DNA from: a virus | Length of the DNA: 21,200 nucleotides | Strand: one strand, 5' to 3' | Virus record (IMG/VR): IMGVR_UViG_3300008448_000798 | Location: 1 to 21,200 of that record | Shown: piece after piece, positions 1,054-8,575 of the stretch | Numbering within the stretch: the first letter of the stretch is position 1 | How the letters are laid out: every line of letters begins with the position of its first letter | Translations under genes and position numbers: made by a program | The notes under the pieces: generated by a model | Seen by the model: the letters and a program-made list of their open reading frames with translations, nothing else | Databases searched by the model: none | What the model was told of the DNA's origin: nothing

Positions 1054-3465
1054 TTAATTACATTTGCTCCAACCACAGGTAGAGCAGCTAACGCATCCAT
1101 CTTGATAGATAAGCTCGGTTGAACCACAATCATTACAAGTCTTCTGACCTCTAACCTTTGTTCCATCTGGTACATAGGTCTTTAGAACTCTTGCAATACA
1201 ACGGGCAAATGAGAACATATCAGAGTCTAGATCTTTTTGTAGTTGCTCAACTACATAGCTTATGTGTGCTCCGTGTCTTAGAGACAAGGAAAGCAAACGA
1301 GTAAATGCAGAATAATTTGGATTATCAAATACTTTTACTACGTCCTTAACAGTTAGATCGCCAAATGTAAGGTCATAACGTGCTTGATTTTTACCTATTA
1401 CTTCCTTTATTAGCTTGCCTTTCTTGACACTCTTTGGAAGATCAACAATCTTGTTTGTTCCACCCAATACTTCGTATGGCTTACCGTCTAGTAGACCAAT
1501 AAGGATTGTCCATTTCTCTCCCTTGATAGAAAGATTGTGAATATCACATTCAAGTTCTGTTGGACGTTTTGGAGCATCATATTGTGGGAATGATTCTTTC
1601 TTTGTTTCTGTGATAAGAACACCGTCACGGGAACCATCAACATATACTGTAACTCCCTTCAAACCAAGCTTCCAAGCAAGCTGATATAGTTCTGCGACTG
1701 TATCTGGTGAAGTGCCCTTTGGAAGATTGATTGTAGATGAAATAGAATGATCAATATGTTTCTGAATAACACCTTGGATTTGAACACGACGCTTCCAATC
1801 AATCTTGTCTGATTCCGTGAAGAAGTCTGGAACTGTATCTGTCTTATACCTCTCCATAAATTCTTTTACATTGTGGTGGTAGACTTTGTATTCTGTCCAC
1901 TTATCACCTACTGAGTCAATAAATGTAGCGGCTTGATCTTGCTCATTGTGAGAAAGCTTACGACGACGGATATAGAAGTTACGGAATACTGGTTCAAGAC
2001 CAGATGAAGTCTGTGACATAATAGAAACAGAACCTGTTGGTGCATTTGTTAGGATACTGATGTTTCTACGTCCAAATGTCTTGATTGCATTCTGTAAACT
2101 TGATGGAAGAGATTTGATAAATGCGTTGTCTTTCTCTTTTTCCCAATCAAATACAGGGAATGCGCCACGCTCTTTGGCAAGCCATACTGATTCTTCATAT
2201 GCACTTTCTTTTAGAGTTGCATAAATTTTATCAATAATAACCAATCCTTCTTCTGAGTCATAACCAAACTTTAAACAAGCTAATGCGTCTGCTAGTCCGT
2301 GTGTACCAAGACCAGTTCTACGACCATTCATACAAGCTGCTAGGAGTTTTGCCCATAGTTCTTTTTCGTCTTGTGTGTTGCAAGCTCCAAGGATAGCTGT
2401 AAGCTTTTCAATTTCAAGATCAATAAGATCGTCAGATAAGCGCATAGCACGACGAACAACTGTGCTAAAACGTTCAAAATCGAAGAAAGCGTTATCTTCA
2501 AATGGGTTAACGACAAAGGACTTAAGATTGACTGAAATAAGGCGGCAAGAGTCATAAGCAGATAAAGGAATTTCACCACAAGGATTAGTTGTAATAGTCT
2601 TGAATCCAACATCTTTATAACTCTCGGCTGGTAAGAACTTCTCGATATTACCCCACATTAAGAGGCCGGGTTCTGCGGTTTTTGTCGCTGAATCAACAAT
2701 ATCCTTCCATAGCTCTCTGGCTCTAATATTTTTAGTATAACTATGAATATCGGAATCACAAGGAAATCGCAGAGTAAAATCTTGGTCTTGCTCCACAGCT
2801 TCCATAAAGTCGTCTGAGATTTTAATAGAGACATTTGCACCTGTTACCTTTGTTAGATCGTGTTTCATCTTAACGAATTTTTCAATGTCGGGGTGTCTGA
2901 TATCAAGAGAAATCATAAGAGCACCACGACGACCATTCTGACCAATCATACGACAAACATATGAATAGAAATCAGCAAATGACCAAGCACCAGTTGTAGT
3001 ACCAGCAGAATTGTTTACTACCATACCCTCTGGTCTTAGCTGAGAAATATCTACACCAACACCGCAACGACGTTTAAATAGGTTTGCCAATTCTTTTCCA
3101 GAATCTACAATAGAAGAAACGTTATCTTCTGGTGATGCTACTACAACACAATTGGACAAAGAAACATTAACAAAGCTATTTCCAATACCATACATTGGTG
3201 AACCTTGTGGAACAATGTCTCCAAAGTTCTTTAAGTGTTCAAGAATAGTATCAAAGCTTAGTGCTGACTCTCCACCATATTTTGCCTCAATGCGTGCAAA
3301 CTCTTCTGCAAGACGAACGTGCATATCTGCTGGTGAGGTTTCCAGATATTTACCATCTTTTGTTTTAAGTGCGTATTTTGTAGCAAACACCCCTGCTGCT
3401 AGTTCATCACCGTTAAAGTATAGTAAACTATCTTTATTAACTTCTTCTTTGCCATAGGTTCTCAT
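1054..3465 (-). CDS. nrdJ: class II (adenosylcobalamin-dependent) ribonucleotide reductase
   Basis: This enzyme reduces ribonucleotides to deoxyribonucleotides for phage DNA synthesis, using a B12-derived radical. The 803-residue chain has SLSNCVVV near residue 105, the active-site block NPCGEIPL with Cys296 and Glu298, then SCRLISVNL, and the PTGSVSIMSQTSSGLEPVF barrel-end motif. The C-terminus is a Cys-rich tail (Cys777, 780, 791, 794, 797, 802) ending CGWSKCN, typical of NrdJ enzymes, where it relays reducing power. There is no N-terminal ATP cone and no class I tyrosine-pair tail, and no small-subunit gene lies beside it. All of this fits class II rather than class I. The start ATG at 3465 follows GGAG, 3 nt after the helicase stop, so the two are probably co-transcribed from the promoter at 4869-4897. 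The cofactor must come from the host. Confidence 0.93.
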   Translation of the reverse strand: MRTYGKEEVNKDSLLYFNGDELAAGVFATKYALKTKDGKYLETSPADMHVRLAEEFARIEAKYGGESALSFDTILEHLKNFGDIVPQGSPMYGIGNSFVNVSLSNCVVVASPEDNVSSIVDSGKELANLFKRRCGVGVDISQLRPEGMVVNNSAGTTTGAWSFADFYSYVCRMIGQNGRRGALMISLDIRHPDIEKFVKMKHDLTKVTGANVSIKISDDFMEAVEQDQDFTLRFPCDSDIHSYTKNIRARELWKDIVDSATKTAEPGLLMWGNIEKFLPAESYKDVGFKTITTNPCGEIPLSAYDSCRLISVNLKSFVVNPFEDNAFFDFERFSTVVRRAMRLSDDLIDLEIEKLTAILGACNTQDEKELWAKLLAACMNGRRTGLGTHGLADALACLKFGYDSEEGLVIIDKIYATLKESAYEESVWLAKERGAFPVFDWEKEKDNAFIKSLPSSLQNAIKTFGRRNISILTNAPTGSVSIMSQTSSGLEPVFRNFYIRRRKLSHNEQDQAATFIDSVGDKWTEYKVYHHNVKEFMERYKTDTVPDFFTESDKIDWKRRVQIQGVIQKHIDHSISSTINLPKGTSPDTVAELYQLAWKLGLKGVTVYVDGSRDGVLITETKKESFPQYDAPKRPTELECDIHNLSIKGEKWTILIGLLDGKPYEVLGGTNKIVDLPKSVKKGKLIKEVIGKNQARYDLTFGDLTVKDVVKVFDNPNYSAFTRLLSLSLRHGAHISYVVEQLQKDLDSDMFSFARCIARVLKTYVPDGTKVRGQKTCNDCGSTELIYQDGCVSCSTCGWSKCN

Positions 3466-3468
3466 TGT

Positions 3469-4845
3469 TTAGTTCTCCGTTTTCTTTGGTTTCTTCTTGT
3501 AAGACTTGTATTTGTTCTTCAAATTCTCTTCTTGTTCTTTCGCTGATTTTGTAATAATCTCTGATGGTGTTTCGCCTGTAGAAGCTAACATCTTTATTCC
3601 TACATTGCCAGTATCCATATAAATTGGATACACAAGACCATCTGGGCCATTACGGTTTTTAGCTATGAAGATACGACCACCGTTTACTGTTTTATCCTCG
3701 ACTGTTCTAGAAACAGAGAAAATAAGGTCCGCTACGAAACATTTGTTGAATGCTTCGCTGATAGATTCCATCGTGATAACCTCTGCATTTAGACCAGATC
3801 GATTGGTCTGTGAAGCGGTCCACAAAGGACAGTTGGTTTCGGCTGCAATACCTCGTAGCTCTTCATAAATAGTTTCAAGTTCTGTTCGTTTCTCTTTTTG
3901 AGTAGATATTGGACGGAGAAGATCACCATAATCTACAATAATCATATCTGGATTGATACCACGAATCTTCAACTTTTCAAGATGCATACGAATAGTGTTG
4001 GTTGTAGCTGTCTTTGTTGGATATTCCTTAACAATCAGCTTACCCTTCATATCCTTGATTTGATCAAAGATTTCATCTTTAAACTGATGTAGTTCGCGGA
4101 TATTGAAGCCGGTATAACAACTGTCATACCGTGAAGCTACAACGGTATCTGCAAGCTCTAGAGTGTAGTGAACAACGGTCTTTCCTTGCTTTAAAGCTTC
4201 TGTGCCAAGATGAACAAGAACCATTGATTTACCTGCACCAGTTGGCGCAATAACTACTCCAAGTTCACCACGACCAAGACCACCCTTTGTAAGATGGTCC
4301 ATTTCATCCCATCCAGTTGATACTGGATTTCTTGACCTAATCTCAAATCGTTTCTCAAAGTCTACAAGAAAGTCATAACCATAATCAGAGGATACACCAA
4401 GCTTGAGTGCATCATTGATTGTCTTTGAAATCTCGTCAAACGAAGCAGATTGAAGTAGCTTTACAGACTTCAACATTGCTTCCTTCAACTTTTGCTTCTT
4501 ACAGAAATCAAGAGAAGTTTCCTTGATATAATCTACACCTTCAACTTGATTAGAATGAATGCGCGCAAAGTAATCGCGTACTTGCTTCTGCAAAGCTTCG
4601 TTTTCATCATCCAAAGTGTTACGAATGATTGAAGTCATAATATCGTAAGTTGGATGGACTTTGTATTTATCCTTGTAATCAAAGATACGCTGAACAAATA
4701 CTTGTAGATACTTTAGTTCAAGAAACTGAACGTCCATTACCTCTTTTAGTTGATCGCAGAAAGGCCGATCAATAAGCATAAGCTGAACAAGATTTTCTTG
4801 AAAAGCCTTGCCAAAACGTGAAAAGTCACTTTTCTCGTTAGTCAT
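3469..4845 (-). CDS. replicative DNA helicase, DnaB/T4 gp41-like
   Basis: This is a hexameric 5'-3' helicase of the DnaB superfamily (SF4) that would unwind DNA at the phage fork. Of its 458 residues, the first ~170 form a helical N-terminal region. The RecA-like motor follows, with Walker A PTGAGKS at 201-207, a Walker B strand MIIVDYGDLL around 301-310 (Asp305), the H4-type SQTNRSG near 345-351, and KNRNGPDG near 396 carrying the likely arginine finger. The length matches gp41-type helicases. The lysine-rich tail (YKSYKKKPKK) is a plausible DNA or primase contact, which is inference. No primase gene is visible in the window. The start at 4845 has AAGG 10 nt ahead, and a sigma70-like promoter precedes it. 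The helicase identity is secure. I cannot say whether it is a closer relative of gp41 or of bacterial DnaB. Confidence 0.9.
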   Translation of the reverse strand: MTNEKSDFSRFGKAFQENLVQLMLIDRPFCDQLKEVMDVQFLELKYLQVFVQRIFDYKDKYKVHPTYDIMTSIIRNTLDDENEALQKQVRDYFARIHSNQVEGVDYIKETSLDFCKKQKLKEAMLKSVKLLQSASFDEISKTINDALKLGVSSDYGYDFLVDFEKRFEIRSRNPVSTGWDEMDHLTKGGLGRGELGVVIAPTGAGKSMVLVHLGTEALKQGKTVVHYTLELADTVVASRYDSCYTGFNIRELHQFKDEIFDQIKDMKGKLIVKEYPTKTATTNTIRMHLEKLKIRGINPDMIIVDYGDLLRPISTQKEKRTELETIYEELRGIAAETNCPLWTASQTNRSGLNAEVITMESISEAFNKCFVADLIFSVSRTVEDKTVNGGRIFIAKNRNGPDGLVYPIYMDTGNVGIKMLASTGETPSEIITKSAKEQEENLKNKYKSYKKKPKKTEN

Positions 4846-4908: not shown

Positions 4909-5949
4909 TTACCAAGCTTTGCAGGACCAGTAGCGTGCTTTGGTCTTTGGACCGGGATTATCGCAGTTATGGCGAGCACGGAATGATTTACGTCTTGCTG
5001 GGATATTCTTTTTAATCTTCATATTCTTGTCACCAAAGTTGACTTTTTTAATATTTCCAGTTTGTGGATCTCTTACGTAAACTTTTGACTTCTTAACGTC
5101 ACCTTTCATTGGTTTGTTAAGAGTTACAGTCTTACCTTGATATTTAGCTTCTTGAATAATTGTTCTTTGACTTTCTAATAACTCTTGTAAGCAAGCTTCG
5201 CAAACAAGTGTTCCATCATCTAAATGTGCTCCTTCATACATTGAAGATTCTTCAGTATCTCTTTTGCCAGTAATACCGGCAACATCAGCTATGCTACCTA
5301 TAACATTTCCTAAATCTTCAATATTATTAGATCTATATAATTTGTATATACTATTGACTATAGTTTTCAATGCGGTTGCGCTAGCACCTTGAAAATCACC
5401 AGAAGCAGCTTGTGCTAAACCAATAGCAATAGAACCAAGAAAAGCACCTGTACCAATTTTTTGTAAACCTTTTTCTAAACTTCCACCACCCAATGTTTGT
5501 AAAGCAGAAAATGTTAAATTTGTTGCCGCGTTTTCCAAAGACTCTTTCTGTACTTGTTGAGTATTTTGTTGTTGTGATTGTTGTGGTTTTGTTTGTAATA
5601 TTAGTTGAGCAGCTTTTGCAGTCTCTGCTTGGTCTTCTGGTGATAATTGGTTAAATAATTGTAAGAAAAGTTGTGCGGCTTGCAGCGGTTGAGTAACTGA
5701 GCGTGCAGCTGCTAAAATTTTAGGATTCTTTTCAATATTTTGTTTTGTTATTTGATCTGGGCCAGCACTACCAGATTTACCTCTTGCTTTAACCAAAATC
5801 ATATTTTTAATATCAGCTGGCTTTCTTACATCAAGTTGTGGTTGTTGTTGAGCAGGAGCTTGTTGCGCTACTGGTTGTTGTTCAACAAGAAAGTTTCTCC
5901 AACCTTCTGTTATTAGTTGTTGTTCTTTAAATGATGAAAATTTGCTCAT
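4909..5949 (-). CDS. putative head-packaged protein with RHNC...RYWSCKAW tail
   Basis: This 346-residue protein has no known enzymatic domain that I can see. It starts with a leader MSKFSSFKEQQLITEGWRNF closely matching that of the next gene upstream and ending in Leu21-Val22-Glu23, the form of a T4-type prohead protease site. A Gln/Pro/Ala-rich linker follows (residues 24-40), then a helical middle with a second Gln-rich patch (about 125-140) and an Ala/Gly-rich segment (GAFLGSIAIGLAQAASG) that might contact membrane. A CEAC pair sits near residue 249. The last 75 residues form a basic module with TLNKPMKGD, VNFGD and ARHNCDNPGPKTKARYWSC, a block I recall attached to varied proteins of marine T4-like phages. 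AAAAAGGA precedes the start at 5949. The structural or injected role is inferred. Confidence 0.7.
   Translation of the reverse strand: MSKFSSFKEQQLITEGWRNFLVEQQPVAQQAPAQQQPQLDVRKPADIKNMILVKARGKSGSAGPDQITKQNIEKNPKILAAARSVTQPLQAAQLFLQLFNQLSPEDQAETAKAAQLILQTKPQQSQQQNTQQVQKESLENAATNLTFSALQTLGGGSLEKGLQKIGTGAFLGSIAIGLAQAASGDFQGASATALKTIVNSIYKLYRSNNIEDLGNVIGSIADVAGITGKRDTEESSMYEGAHLDDGTLVCEACLQELLESQRTIIQEAKYQGKTVTLNKPMKGDVKKSKVYVRDPQTGNIKKVNFGDKNMKIKKNIPARRKSFRARHNCDNPGPKTKARYWSCKAW
5893..5949 (-). repeat. direct repeat copy 1: gene-start leader sequence
   Basis: These 57 bp encode the first 19 residues of the 346-residue protein. They align without gaps to 6641-6697, with 7 mismatches by my count (50 of 57 identical). 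The second copy sits in the same position at the start of the kinase-like gene, so the leader was duplicated at the DNA level or exchanged between genes. Confidence 0.8.
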
Positions 5950-5968
5950 AACTTAATTAGTCCTTTTT

Positions 5969-6697
5969 TTACTTTTCGCCAGATATTAAAGATTGTAAAG
6001 CTTTTCTATTATCAACAGATATTACTTCATCAAATCCTTCGTTTGGTGTTACTTTTTGATAAGAAGCAAACATTCTTCTCATAGCAGAATCTGGGATTGT
6101 CTTTGATTTGCCCATTTGTTTGGCAACTTCTGCTCTTTTTTGTGCTATTTGAAGTATTAACTCTTCTGCTCCTTCAAACTCAAATACAACTGCTATTTTT
6201 TTATATTCACCCTCTCTACCTTCTATTGGTTTTAGAGCGGCTTTTCTTGCACCAGCACTCATATTAGTCATATCAACAACTATATCTTGATTTGATGAAG
6301 CGGCATTTGCAACTCTTTCGCTAAACAACTTTTGAACCTTATTGTTGGCTTGTAAAATTTTATCAAATGATAAAGGTTGCCAAGTCATAAAATCTGGTGA
6401 TTTAACAACAGTTCCATATTTTGGATTTGTGTCACCAAGTTTTGCATCTTGTGGTGGAGGAACAAACATATCATCATATGACCATCCATATTCATCAGCT
6501 ACGCTTTCAGCGATATCATCACGATTGATTATATATGGTTTTGATTGTCCAAAAGTATTGCTAATCCAAGTTGATTTTCCTACAGATGGTGGCCCAACAA
6601 GAACAAATATCTTTTTCTGTTCTTGTGCTTCATTTATAAACTTTCTCCAACCTTCAGTTAATAGTTGTTGTTTTTTATATGATGAATATTTGTTCAT
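5969..6697 (-). CDS. P-loop kinase (PNK/AAA_33-like) with leader peptide
   Basis: This 242-residue protein has a leader (residues 1-23) followed at once by an ATP-binding domain. Walker A is GPPSVGKS at 35-42. It is followed by IINRDD near 57-61 and by IVVDMTNMS around residue 140, a strand equivalent to the DxTN strand of polynucleotide kinases and zeta-toxin-like kinases. A late region, AKQMGKSKTIPDSAMRRMF, has the Arg-rich lid expected in such kinases. The likely activity is phosphorylation of a polynucleotide, nucleotide or small molecule; the substrate cannot be read from sequence. The leader ends in Ile21-Asn22-Glu23, and cutting there would release an intact kinase. That makes a head-packaged, injected enzyme plausible. 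AAGGA lies 7 nt before ATG, inside the end of the upstream gene. The kinase fold is well supported and the role is open. Confidence 0.8.
   Translation of the reverse strand: MNKYSSYKKQQLLTEGWRKFINEAQEQKKIFVLVGPPSVGKSTWISNTFGQSKPYIINRDDIAESVADEYGWSYDDMFVPPPQDAKLGDTNPKYGTVVKSPDFMTWQPLSFDKILQANNKVQKLFSERVANAASSNQDIVVDMTNMSAGARKAALKPIEGREGEYKKIAVVFEFEGAEELILQIAQKRAEVAKQMGKSKTIPDSAMRRMFASYQKVTPNEGFDEVISVDNRKALQSLISGEK
6641..6697 (-). repeat. direct repeat copy 2: gene-start leader sequence
   Basis: This is the partner of 5893-5949, encoding the first 19 residues of the kinase-like protein. The identity stops soon after the leader, where the two genes encode unrelated domains. Confidence 0.8.
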
Positions 6698-6700
6698 ATT

Positions 6701-7495
6701 TTAGTCCTTCTTTTTAGTCCAAGATATGGCTTTAGAAGATTTCTTTTTTCTTAATGGGCCTTTACCAGCGGACTTGCATTGTGCTTTGGTTGGTCTACAA
6801 GCTGGATATTTGCCGCCTTCATCTGCATTGTCTCTGCCACAAGGACCGCCAGTTCTACAATTGACCCAACCTTTTCCTTTATTTCTTGCAAACCATCCGT
6901 GAAGACCTTGCTCTTTTTCCTTAGAGAAGTTTGGTTTATAATCTTTCTTTTCTTCTATTATCTCAAGATCATCATAAACTTCTTCGTTCTTCTTTCTACC
7001 TTGACAGTGCGCTCTTTGAGAGAATCCTTTTGGATTCTTGCAATCAATAGAACGTTTATATTTTTCTGACCACTCTTCATCAATCAAGTTTAGTTCTTCA
7101 TCTGATATATTCTCTGATACACCTTTCCAGATCTTACCTTGACGGCATTTAACAACTGCACCAGAGGCATATGCAGAGGGCCATACATTATATTTGCGCT
7201 TTGCTATTCTTGTGCAACGATCATCTTTTTCAGCTATTAATGATTTAAGTTCTTCTTTTACTAACTGATCAATTTTTAGTTTCAGATCTGTTCTCAAAGA
7301 TGCTTTATCAATACCAGTAGAAGATGCAAGATTATTTATATCGTGTAATGTGTTTTCAACATCGCCCAATATTGTTGATTTAGCTGCATCTTTTTTTTCT
7401 TGTTCTGATGTTTTAGGTGTTTCCTGTGAAAGCGTCATATCTTCGGCTTCACCTATAAACTGTTTCCATTCACGCAAAAGTTGACTGTATTTCAT
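6701..7495 (-). CDS. Cys-rich DUF5872-like phage protein with leader peptide
   Basis: This 264-residue protein is built from modules. It begins MKYSQLLREWKQFIGEAED, a leader with Ile14-Gly15-Glu16 that could be a prohead protease site. A helical acidic region runs to about 90. Next is CTRIAKRKYNVWPSAYASGA, a Cys/Trp block I recall from many marine phage proteins, then CKNPKGFSQRAHCQGRKK, and finally a tail with LHGWFARNKGKGWVNC, GGPCGRDNADEGGKYPAC and RPTKAQC, which resembles DUF5872. The regularly placed Cys and basic residues suggest small zinc-binding or nucleic-acid-binding units, but no function is established to my knowledge. It is the first of three consecutive genes with related leaders, so a place inside the capsid is inferred. 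The hairpin at 7504-7532 lies just ahead of its start. Confidence 0.75.
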   Translation of the reverse strand: MKYSQLLREWKQFIGEAEDMTLSQETPKTSEQEKKDAAKSTILGDVENTLHDINNLASSTGIDKASLRTDLKLKIDQLVKEELKSLIAEKDDRCTRIAKRKYNVWPSAYASGAVVKCRQGKIWKGVSENISDEELNLIDEEWSEKYKRSIDCKNPKGFSQRAHCQGRKKNEEVYDDLEIIEEKKDYKPNFSKEKEQGLHGWFARNKGKGWVNCRTGGPCGRDNADEGGKYPACRPTKAQCKSAGKGPLRKKKSSKAISWTKKKD

Positions 7496-7546: not shown

Positions 7547-8575
7547 TTAGAGATTTTCTACGATTTCTGGAGAAGAAGAGAACACAATCTTGGTTAAATA
7601 GCTACAATCTGTAGACAATACAGAATCAATCATCTTTCTCATTTCTTGCCAGTTCTTAAACTCAACAAGTCTATTCTGATAAAATAGCTTAAACTTTCCA
7701 GTAGATTCTAGAATATCACATTTGTTGATAATAATCTGAGTTGCGCCAGTTAGATTACAGGAATCAATAAGCTTATCAAGATTTAACCAGTTAACTTTTC
7801 GACGGCGACCTGTTGTTACGCCATATTCCTGTCCTGCATCAGCAATAGCAAGGAGTTCTGGATTTTCTAGAAGTGAAGCAGGAAAGTCTGGATCTTCACC
7901 AGAGCGAGTATCATAAGCTTTTGCTACTGCGTAGATATGGCGGATATCTCTTGGGCTAAACCCTAGCGAGCAAGCAGCATAAGGCAGACATTCGCTTGAA
8001 GTTACATAAGGATAGTTACCCCAGTTAATATCAAGCCAAACTCCTTGTGCGCCTTCACAAAGAATATTACCAACCAAATCTTCTTCTAGCAAGAAAGACT
8101 TGTCGATTGGACTATCCTTTGCAAGCATACCAACTCTTGCGTACTTGTCGCGATAAGCAGGGGCGATACCTTGACCTGTTGTACCAAGTTTTCCAGCAAG
8201 TTTAGCCTTATCTTCTGTGATGTGCTCAGATGTTACAATATGGGCACGGGGATGCACCTTAATGAGAGAAACATCAATACCATCTTTTTCTAGCTCACCT
8301 ACTTCTTTATAGAAAGCTTCTAGATTGATAACACAACCCGGCCCAATAACAGACTTAATGCCATAAAAGACACCACTTGGAACAATGTGTGTGGCAAACT
8401 TCTTGCCGTTGTGATAAATCGAATGCCCGGCGTTCGAACCACCATTGAATCTGCATACAAAATTATAATATGGAGTATTATCGTACTCCTTTCGCGATGC
8501 TAGATAATGTGTGACTTTACCCTTGCCTTCGTCACCCCAACAAGCACCAACAACAACGTCAACATTTCTTGCCAT
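7547..8575 (-). CDS. purA: adenylosuccinate synthetase family (PurA/PurZ0-like)
   Basis: Members join aspartate to a purine 6-position using a nucleoside triphosphate: IMP to adenylosuccinate in PurA, dGMP to the 2-aminoadenine precursor in phage PurZ. At 342 residues this is the size of archaeal PurA, not the ~430 of bacteria. It keeps GDEGKGK with catalytic Asp15, NAGH with His51, GTTGQG (131-136), the Arg147 position, EGAQG (174-178), TTGRRRK (254-260) and NKCD (284-287), the guanine-recognition motif. From memory, phage PurZ replaces the catalytic Asp with Ser and uses ATP, so this protein looks like a PurA or the GTP-using PurZ0 type. The loop TRSGEDPDFP (223-232) differs from the usual TRVGAGPFP and lies near the ribose in PurA. 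ATG directly abuts the exonuclease stop (TAAATG). Family certain, substrate open. Confidence 0.9.
   Translation of the reverse strand: MARNVDVVVGACWGDEGKGKVTHYLASRKEYDNTPYYNFVCRFNGGSNAGHSIYHNGKKFATHIVPSGVFYGIKSVIGPGCVINLEAFYKEVGELEKDGIDVSLIKVHPRAHIVTSEHITEDKAKLAGKLGTTGQGIAPAYRDKYARVGMLAKDSPIDKSFLLEEDLVGNILCEGAQGVWLDINWGNYPYVTSSECLPYAACSLGFSPRDIRHIYAVAKAYDTRSGEDPDFPASLLENPELLAIADAGQEYGVTTGRRRKVNWLNLDKLIDSCNLTGATQIIINKCDILESTGKFKLFYQNRLVEFKNWQEMRKMIDSVLSTDCSYLTKIVFSSSPEIVENL

Follow-up and report, generated by a model that had tools for sequence, protein, structure and literature searches.

The window analysed here, a 21.2-kb viral record from IMG/VR (IMGVR_UViG_3300008448_000798; 21,200 nt), contains three neighbouring genes on the minus strand whose products start with related leaders. 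The genes, their leaders and the domains behind the leaders are listed by position in the window.

4909..5949, minus strand: P0001, a candidate cargo protein of 346 residues, basic (pI 9.6)
5881..5949, minus strand: leader of P0001, MSKFSSFKEQQLITEGWRNFLVE, predicted to be cut after Glu23, with Glu15 as the alternative
4912..5154, minus strand: C-terminal basic module of P0001, phrog_7595
5969..6697, minus strand: P0002, a candidate cargo protein of 242 residues, P-loop kinase
6629..6697, minus strand: leader of P0002, MNKYSSYKKQQLLTEGWRKFINE, identical to the P0001 leader at 58 of 69 nucleotides
6056..6607, minus strand: AAA_33 P-loop kinase domain of P0002, with the Walker A motif GPPSVGKST and an NRDD motif
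6701..7495, minus strand: P0003, a candidate cargo protein of 264 residues, basic (pI 9.2)
7448..7495, minus strand: leader of P0003, MKYSQLLREWKQFIGE, predicted to be cut after Glu16
7037..7321, minus strand: phrog_727 module of P0003, DRCTRIAKRKYNVWPSAYASGA, common to cyanophage proteins
6725..6952, minus strand: DUF5872-like basic module of P0003, a weak match below the Pfam cut-off

The original prediction described the N-termini of P0001 and P0002 as alike, that of P0003 as a shorter form of the same leader, and the domains that follow as unrelated, and each of these observations was borne out. The leaders MSKFSSFKEQQLITEGWRNFLVE and MNKYSSYKKQQLLTEGWRKFINE have 15 of 23 residues in common; the next best N-terminal pair among the 23 window genes compared shares 6, and in 200,000 shuffles of one leader, the number of matching residues did not exceed 10. 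The ends of the leaders, LVE23, INE23 and IGE16, are likewise as described, and behind them lie phrog_7595 in P0001, AAA_33 in P0002, and phrog_727 with the weak DUF5872 match in P0003. Two features had been missed, namely, a further [LI]-x-E that closely precedes the Trp in all three leaders (ITE15, LTE15 and LRE9) and the extension of the leader family far beyond this locus.

The obvious point of comparison is the capsid targeting sequence (CTS) of bacteriophage T4. In T4, ipII and ipIII start with MKTYQEFIAE (NC_000866); mutational work on IPIII assigns targeting to residues 4 and 7 and processing to residues 8 and 10, the protease gp21 cuts after L/I-x-E, and the CTS propeptides are 10-19 residues long (PMC9026906). 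The internal proteins of T-even phages have been described as diverse defence proteins in which the CTS alone is conserved (PMC3012670). The family consensus of the leaders described here, [LI]-x-E-x-W-[KR]-x-[FY]-[IL]-x-E, is found on unrelated domains, and its W, F/Y, I/L and E correspond, with identical spacing, to Y4, F7, I8 and E10 of the T4 CTS. The likeness to IPI, IPII and IPIII extends to the overall plan, with an N-terminal leader that bears a cut site, unrelated domains behind it, basic cargo, and an S77 protease together with a gp23-type capsid protein (here, in relatives of the window virus). P0001 and P0003 could, tentatively, be basic DNA-associated proteins like the basic internal proteins of T4. 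Unlike the T4 CTS, however, the leader has an [LI]-x-E-x extension on the N-terminal side of the Trp and carries two [LI]-x-E motifs, Trp replaces Tyr/Phe, and two of the three window leaders (16 or 23 residues) are slightly longer than those of T4; furthermore, whereas T4 has three small proteins, the cargo elsewhere in this family is a large set of enzymes.

Neither head genes nor an S77 protease were found in the 21.2-kb window. The relatives of P0001 in IMG/VR led to four contigs, G001 (184 kb), G002, G003 and G004, which have the same gene order as the window and encode DnaB and ribonucleotide reductase that are about 75-77% and 80-82% identical, respectively, to those of the window. The prohead protease, whose absence from the complete genome the original prediction had named as counterevidence, is present in these relatives: an S77 protease of the gp21 type was identified in G001 (E=8e-29) and G002 (E=2e-30), and one is encoded in all five leader-bearing contigs of at least 180 kb. 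A gp23-like capsid protein is encoded in all four contigs, and in the alignment with T4 gp23, L63 and E65 of the T4 cut site are invariant, the sequence at this point being LLRE-S in the relatives and, in the cyanophage S-CREM2, LLTE-A. The isolates with the closest major capsid proteins, Microcystis phage Mel-JY01 and Flavobacterium phage immuto, show no LENW leader family, nor do their N-termini reveal a clear family built on the generic motif.

Several other features of these genomes were observed along the way. Positions 1054-3465 of the window encode an adenosylcobalamin-dependent class II ribonucleotide reductase (NrdJ_Z, above the cut-off), and positions 7547-8575 encode a homolog of adenylosuccinate synthetase, also present in G001 and L007, that retains the Asp of GDEGKG and matches PurA (E 5e-76) far better than PurZ (1e-34), with both matches below the curated cut-offs. 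In G001, at about 153.4-157.3 kb (L098-L099), a second N-terminal motif, MKITExxLRxxIREEIxxYLxE, is found on at least four proteins that flank the S77 protease, as well as in internal or C-terminal positions in other proteins; this is, possibly, another head-targeting or core element.

Searches beyond the locus show that the leader is a family in its own right. A strict degenerate DNA pattern for the leader matched 65 IMG/VR stretches and none of 84,980 prokaryote genomes, and the control pattern read backwards had no matches in six contigs. In an alignment of 92 leader proteins, collected with a seed pattern that already fixed part of the motif, the leader alone was conserved (consensus MKLLLENWxxFLxE), with W17 invariant and E15 and E23 present in at least 90% of the sequences. 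In G001, a contig reached via P0001 and not via the leader, the motif W..[FY][ILVMK].E occurs 7 times within the first 30 residues of the proteins (7,597 residues) versus 3 times elsewhere (50,699 residues), and a looser motif that allows any aromatic residue is less selective (8 seen, 2 expected). The leader-like N-termini of G001 belong to nucleotidyltransferase-like, kinase-like and HAD-like proteins and to an exonuclease, some of these domain names being a reading of motifs. In another contig, G018, 13 leader starts are packed inside 14 kb, about 7 kb from the S77 gene. A tblastn search with a 20-residue leader against 50,697 phage records, a weak test at such length, returned only a chance match to a microvirus, and a literature search for leader strings recovered only unrelated text. 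A host-type signal peptide was considered and dropped given that searches of host genomes gave no matches.

The end of the leader behaves as a protease site would. Because part of the motif had been imposed by the search itself, we examined 131 leaders that were defined by the front half and the aromatic residues. The Glu of [ILVM]xE is located at W+6 in 121 of these, 8 keep [ILVM]xE 1-4 residues later, and 2 are without it; by comparison, random positions in the same proteins carry [ILVM]xE at this offset in 1.8% of the cases. Retention of [ILV]-x-E despite shifted spacing is as predicted for a cut site. W-x-x-[FY] is present in 130 leaders, with Trp in the remaining one, both positions having belonged to the selecting motif, and W-4, a position fixed by no pattern, is Leu or Ile in 129 of the 131. 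Cutting may occur at the final [LI]-x-E, at the upstream one, or at both. Nine syntenic relatives, the P0001 homologs L008-L015 and L030, read ENFKNFIE(T/A/S)EE, with Phe in place of the Trp and no canonical final [IL]-x-E after FIE(T/A/S)EE; the upstream LTE is kept in them, a hint that cutting may take place there.

The domains behind the leader are highly varied. Pfam matches among the leader proteins include NUDIX, NT5C, RNase_T, ART-PolyVal, S-AdoMet_lyase, Pkinase, NTP_transf_2, tRNA_lig_CPD and AAA_33. The polyvalent proteins (Iyer et al. 2017, PMC5512222) are similar in that they, too, include the ART-PolyVal domain and effectors of the kinase and peptidase types delivered with the DNA; they are, however, giant and multidomain, whereas the leader proteins are single domains, each with a short leader. 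The C-terminal module of P0001 (phrog_7595), named HVA1 family in Roseobacter phage CRP-901, is found behind the long leader, behind a T4-type 10-mer (MKKFKQYIDE in C48C1, MLKFSQYIEE in L038), or leaderless, the last in non-T4 phages, Kolga and CRP-901 among them. This module carries the leader in G001, G002 and G006, where S77 is present, and is leaderless in G008 and G009, large contigs in which S77 was not found, these numbers being small. Two further arrangements were noted in G001. At 2218-3585 (L091), an in-frame fusion places a 2H-phosphoesterase-like domain ahead of MDKILQNWDKFLNEQ and a phosphatase-like domain, and in G004 (31915-32820; L111), the same leader begins a separate gene, which suggests an internal start or a fusion. 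At 38050-46108 (L093), three large neighbouring proteins (884, 859 and 941 residues) that share a VLRMSDxxxxSCHS-like motif adjoin a leader-tagged HAD-like protein.

As for P0002, its Walker A motif GPPSVGKST and NRDD align with T4 polynucleotide kinase (1ly1), with a weak E value of 0.002. The Walker A motif and a general-base Asp are features of kinase domains, and Arg38 of the T4 enzyme is a substrate phosphate contact. The Arg that follows NRDD-Tyr in the T4 kinase (R38) is Ala in P0002, and a polynucleotide kinase assignment was dropped on this ground; moreover, unlike the T4 enzyme, P0002 has no phosphatase domain and carries a leader in front. An AlphaFold model of P0002 made without an alignment (pLDDT 41) was discarded, and a scan of IMG/VR found no relative of this protein. 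P0002 might, tentatively, be considered an early-acting P-loop phosphotransferase.

Cyanophage virions bring direct observations on analogous leaders. For S-CREM2, a T4-like cyanophage, the virion proteome has been published (PMC10665884), and among its virion proteins, a SAM hydrolase (MKDFDSFLEE), an APH-like kinase (MKRFDAFLTE), a cytidylyltransferase (MKNFSSFLTE) and some hypothetical proteins carry a T4-type leader. All three S-CREM2 proteins with the strict leader motif are in the virion (p=0.002), and with a relaxed motif, 5 of 7 are, versus 21 of 186 other non-structural proteins (Fisher p=5e-4); the numbers are small, the relaxed motif was chosen after the list had been viewed, and the strict result is cleaner, yet the strict motif had been tuned on related phages. 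The NMNAT of S-SCSM1, another T4-like cyanophage, was detected in the virion by mass spectrometry and starts with MKSFLQFLKEA. These enzymes share an MKxFxxFLxE start and detection in purified virions, but their leader is ten residues long, as in T4, without the LENW extension. L145:8826-9377, which carries the LENW tag, is a SAM lyase and a homolog of the SAM hydrolase found in S-CREM2 virions, and in the alignment of the two, leader matches leader. Another virion protein of S-CREM2, gp12 (OR473000 7704-10313; L208), with a Cas9-like annotation, has LRFASFMAE at about residues 17-25 and not at the start. The S-CREM2 authors, whose paper mentions no leader or targeting sequence, note that the non-structural proteins may be co-purified contaminants (PMC10665884); a T4-type targeting leader offers a simple explanation for the presence of such suspect enzymes in cyanophage virions.

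Together, these observations support the central proposal of the original prediction, a cluster of head cargo targeted to the capsid in the manner of T4: the leader matches the mapped residues of the T4 CTS in kind and spacing, S77 and gp23 are encoded in the syntenic relatives, the cargo domains vary freely behind the leader, and proteins with T4-type leaders have been detected in S-CREM2 and S-SCSM1 virions by mass spectrometry. We consider it highly probable that the three window proteins are T4-type head cargo and that the leader is a capsid targeting sequence, with packaging, cutting and injection inferred for the window virus. An amphipathic-looking leader with conserved bulky residues could, in principle, dock on anything, and the genes of some tagged relatives lie among replication genes and not in head clusters, so that the leader might instead target a membrane, a replication site or another phage structure, or serve as an uncut docking tag unrelated to the head. 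The conservation of [ILV]-x-E across spacing shifts, the T4 CTS spacing, the co-occurrence of the S77 protease and the analogous leader proteins in the two cyanophage virions make this an improbable alternative.

Far less room is left for the idea that the leaders are a nucleotide-level feature, such as a translation enhancer or a recombination hotspot, with the protein sequence incidental. The P0001 and P0002 leaders are indeed 84% identical in DNA (20 of 23 at third codon positions, with no excess of third-position changes), and AAGGACTAA lies upstream of both. Among the 131 leaders, however, synonymous codons vary freely while the residues hold, Asn and Phe using both of their codons and Leu at W+4 all six, which implies selection on the protein and largely refutes this explanation. 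None of the relatives examined has P0002 at the corresponding syntenic position; in the closest of them, L007, P0003 is directly followed by P0001, with no kinase gene in between. Apparently, the kinase gene either arrived together with a recent copy of the neighbouring leader or acquired such a copy. That the three genes are merely relatives by duplication, the shared N-terminus reflecting common descent with no targeting role, would agree with such a recent copy but is hardly credible given the unrelated domains behind the leader and the occurrence of the same leader on many unrelated folds, in many contigs, where all else has diverged.

For head cargo delivered by a capsid targeting leader, the following scenario can be envisaged. 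As in T4, the protein would bind to the scaffold core of the prohead through the aromatic residues of its leader (Trp, Phe/Tyr). Cutting by the S77 protease of the virus would follow, behind [IL]-x-E at Glu23, Glu23 and Glu16 in the three window proteins and possibly at the upstream [LI]-x-E as well. Once mature, the protein would remain with the DNA and be delivered into the host cell during infection. Domains would be exchanged freely behind the leader, and genes could be added to the cargo when the leader of a neighbour is copied to them, the apparent history of the kinase gene in the window. The window proteins may act against host defence, and it is plausible that the leader-tagged SAM lyase found elsewhere in the family is an anti-restriction enzyme.

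The leader system is probably a new, widespread variant of the T4 capsid-targeting system. On balance, we lean toward a broader interpretation, under which uncultured T4-like aquatic phages possess a modular injection arsenal defined by the leader, with numerous unrelated enzymes in each lineage (SAM lyase, ADP-ribosyltransferase, protein-kinase-like, NUDIX, nucleotidase and exonuclease), cargo islands such as that of G018, and leader copying, so that the leader alone would predict which proteins are delivered. Injected phage proteins are hard to find, being small, diverse and not conserved, and a recognisable leader opens them to a sequence search for proteins delivered before viral gene expression, even in uncultured viruses. 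Since the same tag is borne by dozens of unrelated enzymes from related viruses of aquatic origin, the arsenals that these viruses probably inject can be deduced from their genome sequences.
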